From Olivibacter sp. XZL3 (GTDB lineage Bacteria > Bacteroidota > Bacteroidia > Sphingobacteriales > Sphingobacteriaceae): a stretch of 64,000 nt of DNA. The DNA lies in assembly GCF_004368405.1 (NCBI RefSeq), contig NZ_SBJH01000042.1, positions 62,001 through 126,000 on the forward strand, in the 5' to 3' direction. This document shows, one piece after another, positions 18,766 through 51,387 of this stretch. Under the pieces are notes generated by a model, which was given only the letters and a program-made list of their open reading frames with translations, was not told where the DNA came from and ran no database searches. Made by a program: the position numbers and the translations under genes. The first letter of the stretch is position 1; each line of letters starts with the position of its first letter.

Positions 18766-21700
18766 ATGACAGAAGGTAAAAGCATAAACTTACTGAAAGC
18801 TGCGAAGGAACTGAATATCGGAATTGGTACAGCTGTAGATTTTTTAGCAAAGAAGGGCTATGAAATCGAGGCGAAGCCTAACACTAAGTTAGACCGAGAC
18901 ATGTATGAGGTTCTTCTGAGAGAGTTTCAAGGAGACAAGATCGTGAAAGAGGAAGCCAATCAGATTGTTATTGGCAAGATTCGTCGCGAGGAGGCCCCTA
19001 TTGAAGCCACTACATCAAAAACAACGCAGCCTGAGGTTGAAAATGATGAGATATTAATTAAAAATAATAGCGCTTTCTCCCCTTCTGTTGAGGATTCTAA
19101 AGCGAGCGCTTACAAAGCTCAGCAAAAGGAACCTTCTACCGATGAGCAAAAAGATAAAAGCAAAGAACCAGGTGCAGAACCTTCGATGGGCGTAAAAGTT
19201 GTTGGAAAAATAGACCTTTCGAGCATTAATCAACGCAGCAGGCCTGACAAAAAACCTTATATTAAAGAAGAACCCAAACTGGAACCATCGGTAGAAAAGC
19301 CGGCTCCTATTGTAGAGTCTAAGGCCGAAGTAGCTCCAGAGCCTCCTAAAGAGGCCCCTATTGCGGAAGAGAAGCCACAGGCTCCCTCTGTGCCTGAAGA
19401 GCCAAAAAGAGCCGAGGAAATACCGGCAGCACAAAGCGAGCAGCCAAAAACTGAAGTCGACAAACCAAGTGCTGCACAGCCAAAAGAACCGGCTAAAGAA
19501 GCTGCACCTACTCCAACGCCTGCCCCTCAAAATGAGGTGTTCAGAGCGCGTGCAGAGCACTTAAGTGGCCCGAAAGTAATTGGTAAAATAGAATTACCTA
19601 GTTCTCCTCAAAAACGCAAGGATCAACCTATCGCTTCCTCTTCGGGTGCCGGTGGGGTATCCGACCATAAGCGTAAGCGGAAACGTAATACACTCGGCGG
19701 ACATCAAAATCGCCCGGGAGATAATAACCAACAGCAACGAGGCGGCCAGGCTGCTGCCGGAGGCGGCGGTCAAACGCAAAACCGTCCTCATCCAGGCCAA
19801 GGGCAAAATCAAGGCGGGCAAAGGCCTGACCATAGAGGTAAAGGCAAGCACGATTTCAAAGGCCGTGGCCGACATACGGAAACGCCGAAGGAAGAGCCTA
19901 CAGAAAAAGAGATACAAGATCAAATAAAGGCGACGCTGGCACGTCTAAGCGGTGCCGGTAAGTCGGGCAAATTTGCACAAAGAGCGAAATTACGCCGTCA
20001 GAAGCGGGATGATGTCGCTTTATCTGCCGAAGAAGCGGCTATGGAAAGAGAGATGCAGTCGAAAGTGCTCCGTGTTACCGAGTTTGTTACAGCAAACGAA
20101 TTGGCGAACATGATGGACGTTTCGGTAACGCAGGTTATTTCCACTTGTATGAGCTTAGGTATATTTGCTTCTATCAACCAACGATTAGATGCAGAGACTC
20201 TTACGATTGTTGCTGATGAATTTGGCTACGAAGTTGAATTTGTGAAGCCTGAGGATGAGGAAACACATTCATTGGAAGAGGAAGATAATCCGGATAATTT
20301 AATTCCACGTGCGCCTATTGTTACGGTAATGGGACACGTTGACCACGGTAAGACCTCACTACTGGATTACGTAAGAAAAACCAACGTTATCGGAGGAGAA
20401 GCCGGAGGCATTACCCAACACATCGGGGCTTATGCTGTTAAATTGGACGATGGACGAAAAATCACCTTTTTGGATACACCAGGTCACGAGGCCTTTACGG
20501 CGATGCGTGCCCGCGGTGCAAAAATAACGGATATTGCCATCATCGTCATTGCAGCTGATGACAGTGTGATGCCACAAACGAAAGAGGCAATAAACCATGC
20601 CCAAGCTGCTGGAGTACCGATTGTTTTTGCCTTTACGAAAATAGATAAACCCGGCGCCAATGCCGATAAGATCCGGGAACAGCTTTCTGCCATGAACATT
20701 TTGGTGGAAGACTGGGGTGGAAAATATCAGGCCCAGGAGATTTCTGGTAAAACCGGTTTAAACGTCGATTTGCTCTTGGAAAAAGTGCTTTTGGAAGCTG
20801 AATTATTAGATTTGAAGGCAGACCCGAAAAAACGTGCCGTTGGATCGGTTGTAGAGGCGGCTTTAGACAAAGGACGAGGTATCGTAACAACGGTCTTAAT
20901 AGAAGGGGGTACCTTACGTATCGGTGACCCGATATTGGCCGGATCGCATAGCGGTAAAGTGAAGGCACTGACGAATGAGCGGGGCCAAAAAGTTACCGAA
21001 GCCGGTCCGTCTACACCTATACAGCTACTGGGTATGAATGGTGCACCTACGGCGGGCGATAAATTCTATGTACTTGAAAGCGAAGCGGAAGCTAGGCAAA
21101 TTGCCAATAAACGCTTACAGCTGCAACGGGAACAAGGACTTCGTACACAGAAACATATCACGCTGGACGAAATTGGTCGCCGTTTAGCTATTGGAAACTT
21201 CAAAGAGCTCAATGTAATTGTAAAAGGTGACGTGGACGGTTCTATTGAAGCCTTGTCAGACTCCCTTTTGAAATTGTCTACGGAAGAAATCCAAGTAAAT
21301 ATCATCCACAAATCGGTTGGACAGATTTCAGAATCGGACGTGTTATTAGCTTCGGCATCAGACGCTATCATTATAGGTTTCCAGGTAAGGCCTTCTCAAA
21401 ATGCGCGTAAATTAGCAGAGCAGGAACAAATAGACATCCGTTTGTACTCCATTATTTACGATGCGATCGAAGAGTTGAAAGCCGCAATGGAAGGCATGTT
21501 GGCTCCTAAGTTTGAGGAAAAAATTGTCGCCAACGTGGAAATCCGGGAAACGTTCAAAATCAGCAAAGTGGGAACCATCGCCGGTTGTATGGTACTAGAT
21601 GGAAAAATTAACCGCAACCACGATATTCGCTTGATTCGAGACGGTGTTGTGGTTCACTCCGGTAAATTAGCCTCTCTAAAACGCTACAAAGATGATGTTA

Positions 21701-21813
21701 AAGAAGTTTCTCAGGGATATGAGTGCGGATTAAACATTTACAATTTCAACGACATCAAAGTCGGGGATATTGTGGAAGCTTATGAACAGGTAGAAGTAAA
21801 GAGAAAATTATAA
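18766..21813 (+). CDS. infB: Translation initiation factor IF-2
   Basis: IF-2 is the GTPase that brings initiator tRNA to the 30S subunit. The 1015-residue protein has the IF2_N fold at its start and a long, Pro/Glu/Lys-rich then Gly/Gln/Asn/Arg-rich linker (about 100-400). A second IF2_N module and the G domain follow, with G1 G-H-V-D-H-G-K-T at 523-530, G3 D-T-P-G-H-E and G4 T-K-I-D. Domains II-IV complete the C-terminus. The large disordered linker accounts for its size. A strong terminator follows the gene. Confidence 0.97.
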
Positions 21814-21834: not shown

Positions 21835-21868
21835 AAAAGGGGTTTTCCGGTTGGGAAACCCCTTTTTT
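21835..21868 (+). terminator. Rho-independent terminator after infB
   Basis: A 14-bp stem with one G-U pair (21835-21848 with 21853-21866, core AAAAGGGGTTT/AAACCCCTTTT) has a GGTT loop and a T-run. It closes the rimP-nusA-infB operon. Confidence 0.88.
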
Positions 21869-21917
21869 ATTAAGTACTTTCTTTCGGAAGGCATAATTTG
21901 CATAAGGTATTGAACCT

Positions 21918-22345
21918 TTTTCGTTACTTTTTTCCGCAAAAAGTAACAAAAACCGACCGTAGGGAGCTCATGAGCACCAAAAATGGACAGAATGCGAATA
22001 AACTCATCGCTTGGAACTTTGCTACAACCGCAGCGCATCAACATGCAAACCGCAAATTTCCTAGGCGATATTTTTATGTCGAACGGAGGGATATTGCTTC
22101 TAACCGTCCGTATCACTTTCGCTTGGTAACACGACGTTGTGTGGTGGGAAAAATGACCTTGGAGGATACCGAAGCAGCGAGCAGCAAAGCATTGGCGGTA
22201 TCTTTCATTTTGCAATATCCAAGCAGATTGAGGAAGTGAAGCGGCTCCAATACCGCGATGGATGCTTGGCCATCAGGCGCAAGGTAGCCTACATAGCCTT
22301 GATCTTTTTTGGTTCTTTTTTGGGTCAAGCCAAAAAGAACATATT
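21918..22345. repeat. Hairpin-flanked gene-free element, probably a dispersed repeat
   Basis: About 600 bp between infB and the ABC transporter hold no credible gene. Within them a unit of about 425 bp is flanked by two similar hairpins: GTTACTTTTT/AAAAAGTAAC (21923-21932 with 21938-21947) and GTTCTTTTTTGG/CCAAAAAGAAC (22312-22323 with 22330-22340). Open frames cross it on both strands with no family likeness. Translations such as K-K-V-T-K-K-V-Q and S-S-K-V-I-F-P-T-T-Q-R resemble spurious short 'hypothetical proteins' I recall as recurring in Sphingobacteriaceae, suggesting a dispersed repeat or structured RNA. Only one copy is in the window. Confidence 0.45.
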
Positions 22346-22473
22346 ATTAAAAAAATGACTAAAGAAAGGGTCGTTTTAAATAAGCAGATATTGACTAAAA
22401 AAGTACATTAGAACGCTGGCTAAGAAAGAAACAAGAAGCATTTATTCTACATAGCACCAAAAAAGACATCTAT

Positions 22474-24297
22474 TTATACTTCCTCAAATTGCTGCATATC
22501 TACCAAGCGCTTATATAAGCCGTTTTTTGCCATAAGCTCCGTGTGCGTGCCTTGTTCTACAATAGCACCGGACTCCAAGACGATGATCACGTCTGCTGAT
22601 TGGATGGTGCTGAGCCTATGTGCAATAACGAGCGTCGTTCTGCTATGCATTAACTTATTCAGCGCGTCCTGTACCAGCTTTTCCGACTCAGTATCCAAAG
22701 CAGATGTCGCCTCATCGAGCAGCAAGATCGGTGGATTACGTAAGACCGCCCTGGCGATACAGATCCGTTGCCGCTGTCCGCCCGACAACTTAACACCGCG
22801 GTCACCAATATTCGTGTAATAACCCTGCTCGGTAGCTTCAATAAAATCATGCGCATTCGCTATTTTTGCTGCCGTAACGACCTGCTCCAAAGTCGCATCT
22901 TGTACGCCAAAAGCGATATTGTTGAATATGGTATCGTTAAACAAAATGGACTCTTGGTTTACCGTACCCATCAAGGCCCGTAAAGAATCGCTTTGAATCT
23001 CTTTAATGTTTAGGCCGTCAAATGTGATTTCGCCGAACTGTACATCTTGGAAACGAGGCACTAAATCCATCAAGGTCGATTTTCCTCCACCGGAAGGCCC
23101 CACCAGCGCGATTGTTTTTCCTTTAGGAATATCAAAGCTTATGTTGTCTAATACCTTCTTATCCTGATAGGAAAAACTCACATTCCTGAAAGCGATTGCT
23201 TCTTTAAAGTCTGTTACGGCAACTGCATTCGGGCTATCCGCAATAGCCGGACGTTCGTCAATCAGTTCCAGTACCCTTTCGCCTGCTGCAATTCCGGAGT
23301 GAATATTACTAAAAGAATCGGTAATCGCTTTGGCAGGACGCATAACTTGCGAAAACATAGCGATATAAGCAATAAACGATGCCGCATCTAACTCCTCGCT
23401 CCCTGCGAGCACCAGATTGCCACCATATAATACCAGCGCCGCCACCATCAAGATTCCGAGCAGCTCCGACACGGGCGCCCCTAATTGCTGTCTCCTTGCC
23501 ATTCGCTTTCCTAATTTGGAATAATATACATTCTCTTCATGAAATCGTCCCTTAACAAAGGAAGTAGCATTGAAGGCTTTGATAATCTTTACTCCCGACA
23601 GGGCTTCATCGAGGTAACTTATCATTTTTCCGTACACCTTTTGCGCCTCGGTAGCCTGCTGTTTCAATTTCCGAACGATCAACGAAATAATAAAGGCCGA
23701 TACCGGAATTACCAAGATGGCGAAGAAAGTCAACTTATAGCTGATGGCGAAAAGCCAAATGATATAAAAAAGCAATTGTAATGGCTCTTTGAATACTACC
23801 TGTAACGTCGCGGTAACAGAGAACTGAACAACTTGTACATCGGACGCAATCTTTGAAATGATGTCTCCTTTTCGCTGATTATTAAAATAACCGACATGCA
23901 GGTCCATCACATTATCAAATACGGTTTTCCTTAGGTTGAGTAGCGTATGAATCCGAAGATTCTCCATAATCCGTTGCGCAAAATAGCGAAACAGATTACT
24001 GACAAACACCGAAGCCACGATTACAACGAGTACCCGTTGCAGGGTACCATAAGGCCCGAAGCGCTGGCTAAGATCCTGCGCGTAATAATTAAAATGGTCG
24101 ATTAAGTTATACCAATTGTCTGGCTTGCTTACAACTTCGATACTATCTCCTTCCGCAAATAAAGTGTTCAAGAGCGGGATGAGCAGCGCCAGATTTAGCG
24201 TTCCGAAGAACACCGTAATAAGGGTGCATATAATATAAGGAATAGCGTATTTCTCGATGGGTTTGGCAAAAGACAATAATCTCAGATAGGTTTTCAT
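22474..24297 (-). CDS. ABC exporter, MsbA/lipid-flippase-like
   Basis: The 607-residue half-transporter has six membrane helices in its first 310 residues. It ends in an ATPase domain with Walker A G-P-S-G-G-G-K-S-T, signature L-S-G-G-Q-R-Q-R, Walker B I-L-L-L-D-E-A-T-S-A-L-D and a switch His (V-I-A-H-R-L-S-T). This architecture fits MsbA-type exporters that flip lipid A or other lipids across the inner membrane. A drug or peptide exporter cannot be excluded from sequence alone. It stands alone on the minus strand, facing infB across the hairpin-flanked element. Confidence 0.85.
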   Translation of the reverse strand: MKTYLRLLSFAKPIEKYAIPYIICTLITVFFGTLNLALLIPLLNTLFAEGDSIEVVSKPDNWYNLIDHFNYYAQDLSQRFGPYGTLQRVLVVIVASVFVSNLFRYFAQRIMENLRIHTLLNLRKTVFDNVMDLHVGYFNNQRKGDIISKIASDVQVVQFSVTATLQVVFKEPLQLLFYIIWLFAISYKLTFFAILVIPVSAFIISLIVRKLKQQATEAQKVYGKMISYLDEALSGVKIIKAFNATSFVKGRFHEENVYYSKLGKRMARRQQLGAPVSELLGILMVAALVLYGGNLVLAGSEELDAASFIAYIAMFSQVMRPAKAITDSFSNIHSGIAAGERVLELIDERPAIADSPNAVAVTDFKEAIAFRNVSFSYQDKKVLDNISFDIPKGKTIALVGPSGGGKSTLMDLVPRFQDVQFGEITFDGLNIKEIQSDSLRALMGTVNQESILFNDTIFNNIAFGVQDATLEQVVTAAKIANAHDFIEATEQGYYTNIGDRGVKLSGGQRQRICIARAVLRNPPILLLDEATSALDTESEKLVQDALNKLMHSRTTLVIAHRLSTIQSADVIIVLESGAIVEQGTHTELMAKNGLYKRLVDMQQFEEV

Positions 24298-51249: not shown

Positions 51250-51259
51250 CACGGTAAAA

Positions 51260-51324
51260 TGTGGAATGATTTGCGTGCCAACTACGTGGCGGGATTGCAA
51301 CCACAGTAAAAAAAAGTGCTAATG
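51260..51324 (+). ncRNA. SAM-II-like riboswitch upstream of metK
   Basis: The leader matches the SAM-II pattern I remember. P1 pairs 51260-51264 (TGTGG) with 51301-51305 (CCACA). In the loop are TGATTT (51268-51273) and TTGCA (51295-51299), with an extra small hairpin (GCCA 51277-51280 with TGGC 51287-51290). After P1 come TAAAAAAAA and GTGCTAA. A pseudoknot can form between ATTGCA (51294-51299) and TGCTAAT (51317-51323) with one bulged T. metK makes SAM, so feedback control fits. SAM-I features are absent. P1 has two extra bases before GATTT compared with the pattern I recall. Confidence 0.65.
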
Positions 51325-51387
51325 ATTGCCTTTCTAATTACGCTTCATTTTTGCTTATCAAACATTTTACAGACAGATAAAATATAG
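51322..51387 (+). CDS. Possible 21-codon upstream ORF in the metK leader
   Basis: The ATG at 51322 follows GTGCTA and opens a 21-codon hydrophobic reading frame (M-I-A-F-L-I-T-L-H-F) that stops at TAG 51385-51387, 28 nt before metK. The first two bases of its AUG are in the proposed SAM-II pseudoknot. It has no strong ribosome-binding site. It could be a chance ORF or a leader peptide; no family is recognised. Confidence 0.3.
   Translation: MIAFLITLHFCLSNILQTDKI

Follow-up and report, generated by a model that had tools for sequence, protein, structure and literature searches.

The DNA at positions 21918-22345 of the window (the whole stretch of 64,000 nucleotides that was analysed), behind infB, belongs very probably to an old member of a foldback, mosaic and non-autonomous MITE-like family of Olivibacter. 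The family is apparently an undescribed, hairpin-rich, non-coding repeat that is dispersed over a few Olivibacter genomes, and the window copy, in which neither a CAGGG nor a CAGGGATT-like outer end can be recognised, is probably immobile. The features of a MITE are found at the level of the family: its members are short, non-coding and multicopy, they have terminal inverted repeats (TIRs), an anchored subset of them shows a target-site duplication (TSD) of near-fixed length, and there are sites without the insertion. The original prediction had left the choice between a non-autonomous mobile element and a structured RNA. The former fits better, in view of dispersed copies, empty orthologous sites and TSDs in a subset of copies, and what that prediction had named as refuting evidence (a single copy, no matches in relatives and no covariation) was looked at and is not what we found.

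The insertion behind infB and its relatives

Relative to the genome of O. jilunii, the window contains an insertion of about 550 bp in the convergent intergenic gap 3' of infB. The latter gene, whose name is that given in the original prediction, corresponds to the ORF at 18766-21813 and is followed by a terminator-like hairpin at 21835-21866; the convergent ORF ends at 22474 and reads, by its sequence, as that of an ABC transporter. The originally predicted element is thus contained within a wider insertion, in which the following features were distinguished:

About 21907..22454, + strand: full extent of the insertion as compared with O. jilunii, where the site without the element lies at ~295.2 kb of G001:C1; ends +/- a few bases
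21897..21906, + strand: possible eroded left target-site copy TTTGCATAAG (weak), by eye against the empty site TCTGCATAAG
21910..21921, + strand: left inner terminal-repeat block TTGAACCTTTTT, by eye against the AAAAGGAACGTTTTT blocks of other copies
21923..21947, + strand: left end hairpin GTTACTTTTTTCCGCAAAAAGTAAC, a palindrome at three sites in its own genome
21948..22002, + strand: optional left inner module (ACCGACCGTAGGGAGCTCATGAGC...), in some copies (L003, L035) and not in others
22003..22069, + strand: core arm 1, in which compensatory changes are seen between copies; the arm alone matched at other loci
22157..22298, + strand: core arm 3, a long imperfect stem, matched elsewhere alone or with another middle
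22298..22302, + strand: core-edge CTTGA, to which the loop of the right hairpin is complementary
22311..22340, + strand: right end hairpin GGTTCTTTTTTGGGTCAAGCCAAAAAGAAC, with loop TCAAG at 22325-22329
22343..22379, + strand: right inner terminal-repeat block ATTATTAAAAAAATGACTAAAGAAAGGGTCGTTTTAA, by eye against the right blocks of other copies
22380..22454, no strand assigned: tail within the insertion, of which no second copy was found in the DNA compared

In the empty counterpart in O. jilunii, TCTGCATAAG is directly followed by AAAAAAGATCAAGG. A possible right counterpart of TTTGCATAAG was seen by eye (TCTACATAG, 22446-22454), but neither the unanchored nor the anchored scored search confirmed this pair, and a TSD of the window copy is not convincing; the script used for inner repeats did not recognise the window blocks on the left or on the right. 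The two hairpins that had been described as similar are both present, with only a moderate likeness (83% over 18 nt), and across the copies the left and right hairpins are of two different types. If up to 3 mismatches are allowed, no other site in the 64 kb window matches either pattern, and dinucleotide shuffles also give 0. An exact 11 bp direct repeat, AGCACCAAAAA, occurs at 21973-21983 in the left inner module and at 22453-22463 at the right insertion junction. Elsewhere in the window, at 51255-51332 (+), a SAM-II riboswitch (RF01726) reaches 44.9 bits, the gathering score being 44.

Searching the own genome (G000) with a 471 bp query yielded 40 matches at E <=10, of which 11 are at <1e-5, the query itself included and some of the matches consisting of end hairpins alone. 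A wider query matched 10 of 60 genomes (the own genome included) at E 0.001, outside Olivibacter with the end hairpins only. Searches of single genomes, in each of which 40 candidates were scored (out of 88 in G001 and out of 65 in G004), gave at least 48 matches in G001 and at least 27 in G004; sequence shared at 7 of 10 and 6 of 8 loci, respectively, identifies these genomes as O. jilunii P8502 and O. domesticus DSM 18733. The core alone matches in three of the five genomes of the genus: at 9 places, at 39 or more in G001 (where 40 of the 50 candidates were scored) and at 16. It has no match in the other two, G002 and G003, although with the wider query G003 shows weak, partial similarity. 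When 84,980 species genomes, a set from which the records of the window genome itself were possibly left out, were scanned with a degenerate 31-base motif of the core, the resulting 30 stretches all lay in O. jilunii P8502 or O. domesticus DSM 18733. Phage records contained no match to the family, and plasmid records a single one of 47 bp (Haliscomenobacter) and none to an array element of G006. The copies that were looked at occupy intergenic positions. A literature search retrieved no account of this Olivibacter family; subscription journals lay mostly outside its coverage, so that absence is unproven. Within G001:C1:107059-113251 there are five family matches of 42-43 bp, the last three intervals being 362 bp each, and a sixth match lies 4.6 kb further on, possibly a tandem array.

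Open frames are indeed present on both strands, as had been noted, and none of the four ORFs tested resembles a protein family at cut-off (Pfam gave two weak matches, E 0.1 and 0.17; NCBIfam gave none at E 1). Among 171 pairwise indels between 34 other copies and the window copy, 160 are not multiples of three (115, 45 and 11 have lengths of 1, 2 and 0 modulo 3, shared indels being counted repeatedly), and 3 of 210 frames are open through the core. A protein-coding gene is ruled out by the frame-breaking indels, the closed frames and the lack of a protein family at cut-off. The element therefore contains no gene, in agreement with the original prediction, and its translations are frames through a non-coding repeat and not the short 'hypothetical proteins' for which they had been taken.

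Modular anatomy, empty sites and the putative transposase

For the anatomy of the family 37 near-full copies were oriented, including the window copy (L001). Going inwards, a copy can show an optional outermost block that begins with CAGGGATT, then another optional one (CATATAGATGAAGGTGTTTATATT), then an inner block resembling AAAAGGAACGTTTTT, followed by an end hairpin, an inner module that is not always present and, in the middle, a core of ~270-320 bp that contains arms 1 and 3. Terminal inverted repeats take two forms at family level: candidate CAGGGATT-like ends, which 17 of the 37 copies have on either side (several of them poor), and AAAAGGAAC inner blocks. The match between left and right inner repeats is only slightly better within a copy than between copies (0.749 vs 0.688, permutation p 0.025, 19 of the 37 copies being usable). 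Arms and end modules also recur separately from full copies, there are several types of end hairpin, and other elements with the same left hairpin carry other cores and ATGACTATCGG outer ends; the full copy L070 has ATGACTATCGG ends at both sides. L033 (G000:C114:15444-15703) and L031 (G000:C88, ~3.7 kb) represent a second class of elements, which share this left hairpin and have outer ends of the ATGACTATCGG type, and L031 has ATAAATTTT on both sides. In L004 and L009 of the window genome another block, in which CCCACCGTTCTGCGGAGCC-like sequence or the complement thereof occurs, has taken the place of part of the element.

A comparison of the sequences flanking the 37 copies with 2.38 Mb of G000 and G001 placed both flanks at one orthologous position for nine. 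For four of these (the window copy, L052, L066 and L080) the orthologous site lacks the element, the unaligned DNA of L066 and L080 being wider than the match to the core family. At the orthologous sites of L073 and L078 the element is absent but other unaligned DNA is present, and those of L062, L071 and L060 are occupied by another element or by a shorter one. The copy that is found at the L060 site in the window genome has a right half that resembles, by eye, the inverted left half.

The search for duplications anchored on CAGGGATT-like ends covered the 17 copies with candidate ends, a set to which the window copy does not belong. A direct repeat of 9-10 bp with at most 2 mismatches flanks seven of them (L002, L003, L066, L067, L074, L076 and L081), against 2 of 272 mismatched pairings between copies. 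The repeat is exact in L066 (CATAACAAAA) and exact over 9 bp in L067; in the remaining 10 copies, several with poor candidate ends, no TSD was found. An unanchored search over the 37 copies was overall no better than its null (medians ~24 vs ~23). Two copies in that search, L066 and L001, outscore every one of the 110 null draws; the left member of the L001 repeat (AGCACCAAAA, 21973 and 22453) is located inside the element, with its right member at the junction. A TSD of 9-10 bp at CAGGGATT-like ends, be it in a subset, is the mark of a DDE transposase, perhaps of the ISAs1 family. Such an enzyme, encoded elsewhere, would recognise the outer ends and insert the element between genes, and end modules and arms may be swapped among copies by recombination or template switching, with the inverted repeats as a help. 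Transposition of the DDE type followed by decay and exchange of parts would be the most economical reading.

As to the source of the transposase, an ISAs1-family enzyme is the likeliest candidate, a suggestion that we make tentatively and that derives from an element in a non-carrier of the same genus. This ISAs1-like element of G002 (L283, G002:C63, 669-1906, 1238 bp) has CAGGG ends, five bases with which the outer ends of the Olivibacter family begin as well, a TIR that matches at 18 of 18 positions and an exact direct repeat of 10/10 bp (TGTTTGGAGT); CGC occurs, by eye, at the same spacing as in the short outer end of the Olivibacter family. In the ISAs1 family as a whole the ends are CAGGG and the repeats are 8-10 bp long, with which the measured case agrees. 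Unlike it, the Olivibacter element is without a transposase and the rest of its TIR is different. The ISAs1 transposase domain PF13808 is above cut-off in none of the three carriers, and a resident ISAs1 helper was accordingly rejected: none was found in O. jilunii and O. domesticus, and the window genome has a fragment alone (31.5 bits against a cut-off of 32.3). No transposase-bearing partner with CAGGG ends turned up in the DNA scanned, using a strict scan that missed known copies such as L066; its output was one 488 bp pair in O. jilunii and the G002 element, with 0 in the control.

The short end hairpins, the mosaic make-up and the intergenic copies could also be those of a REP/BIME-type repeat, moved in single-stranded form by a RAYT (IS200/IS605-like Y1) transposase. 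Palindromic units and a mosaic arrangement are indeed shared with these systems (PMC2817692, PMC3733652), whereas the Olivibacter unit is much longer, has TSDs in a subset of its copies and resides in genomes in which no Y1 transposase was found. At E 1e-5 the domain PF01797 is found in none of the three carriers, and the single genome out of five in the genus that has it, G002, is a non-carrier, so that RAYT/IS200 was rejected as the mover. IS200/IS605 insertion, moreover, is not known to make a TSD. With the duplications and the distribution of the domain both against it, this reading is largely refuted, barring a very divergent Y1 protein in the carriers, and we consider it highly improbable. 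The MITE-like reading has parallels in the elements BrickBuilt, MITE239 and MITE464/PgRS of Porphyromonas gingivalis (PMC4596501), which are non-autonomous and multicopy, with TIRs and predicted long stem-loops, are lacking at a site in some strains and, in the case of BrickBuilt, show TSDs in only some copies (3/4 of those with both TIRs). The Olivibacter family resembles them in being non-autonomous and multicopy and in its TIRs, partial TSDs, stem-loops and empty sites. It differs in its CAGGGATT-like outer ends with a 9-10 bp TSD, the P. gingivalis TIRs (GAGAC..., ACGT...) resembling IS5-family ends according to a table in PMC4596501, and in consisting of exchangeable hairpin modules instead of a 23 nt minisatellite.

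Preserved pairing in the core

Pairing is maintained in the core arms and shows no bias of the sort that an RNA from one strand should leave. The consensus folds were derived from 35 of the 37 copies (L003 and L078 were left out) and have 58 pairs in common between the two strands. These shared pairs contain 1872 Watson-Crick cells and 51 cells with a double change, where sliding the partners gives no more than 559 and 19, respectively, and 16 pairs show a double change from Watson-Crick to Watson-Crick, counts that are inflated by the kinship among copies and by the derivation of the structure from the same alignment. Wobble asymmetry is small on the shared pairs (47 GU vs 35 AC cells). It is greater on either strand's fold taken alone, with 181 GU vs 65 AC on the + strand and 182 vs 56 on the - strand (35 copies), and 135 vs 18 for the + strand in a first alignment (36 of the 37 copies, without L078, and with L003 and L085 misaligned at the left). 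Since both single-strand folds have it, the GU excess arises from folding one strand, and Watson-Crick pairing that is kept through double changes without a clear strand bias does not support a dedicated RNA.

A structured non-coding RNA gene family that is multicopy by chance could nevertheless claim the compensatory pairing in arms 1 and 3, the GU excess of the + strand fold and the folding energy of 21890-22360, with a z-score of -2.41 for the + strand, where 1 of 100 shuffles did as well, and of -1.76 for the - strand, where 6 of 100 did. Against it stand the equal GU excess on the other strand, the near balance on the shared pairs, the exchange of modules and the absence of whole copies at orthologous sites. 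No family in Rfam reaches its gathering score, so that a known RNA family was rejected; the five weak matches were to miRNA models (the best being mir-544, E 0.026) and to one bacterial sRNA model, which lay over the infB terminator. A scan for promoters and terminators gave 0 of each and is uninformative on this matter, because it expects few and missed the infB terminator. We therefore regard an RNA gene, which had been put forward as a separate explanation, as very improbable. The double changes may instead result from templated repair of quasi-palindromes and not from selection on the fold: whole blocks change on both sides together (GGAACTTTGC/GCAAATTTCC vs CAAAATTTACAG/CTGTAAATTTTG), and GU and AC are about equally frequent on the shared pairs. 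We give this explanation somewhat less than an even chance; it concerns the upkeep of the pairing only, and is compatible with the reading as a mobile element.

Complementarity between loop and core edge in the right end module

In the right end module the loop (NTCAAG) is complementary to the edge of the core just outside the stem (CTTGAN), and the same holds in several families of the class with unrelated cores. Among 149 genomes of the class, 12 contain the pattern GGTTCTTTTTN(4-14)AAAAAGAAC, with a total of 20 matches, of which a single genome has 8, against 1 for the reversed control, and CTTG is found within 18 bases upstream at 12 of 17 readable loci, or in 6 of 11 when counted by genome. 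The match between flank and loop exceeds all 5000 permutations over 71 hairpin readings at 34 loci (23 readings at 5 or more bases), where the readings combine the class scan with earlier relatives, both strands are counted and many come from the same genomes. A separate hairpin scan, set too strictly to be of use, did no better than its control. For Olivibacter alone, the match is 4.45, against at most 2.21 in letter shuffles (29 of the 37 copies, with the wrong hairpin in several), but 244 of 2000 row permutations did as well, which implies that within Olivibacter the complementarity is conserved and not covarying. Clusters of elements in other genera, L110 (G006:C2:136000-151000) and L111 (G042:C64:1-3000), have hairpins of the form GTTCTTTTT...AAAAAGAAC and loop-to-edge complementarity, with other cores.

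Because there is hardly any linker between them, the loop-edge pairing and the stem seem to be mutually exclusive, which would give two alternative hairpins. That the module is a switch, recognised by one shared enzyme as single-stranded DNA or RNA and serving as a common signal for mobilisation or maturation, is a doubtful proposition at present; if true, such a signal has not yet been described, and the complementarity across the genomes of several families is the part that a specialist may want to follow. For Olivibacter, the analysis explains short open frames of a kind that might be annotated as hypothetical proteins and defines a repeat family in three genomes of the genus, and the orthologous sites at which different modules are found provide a workable system for the exchange of parts in mosaic foldback elements.
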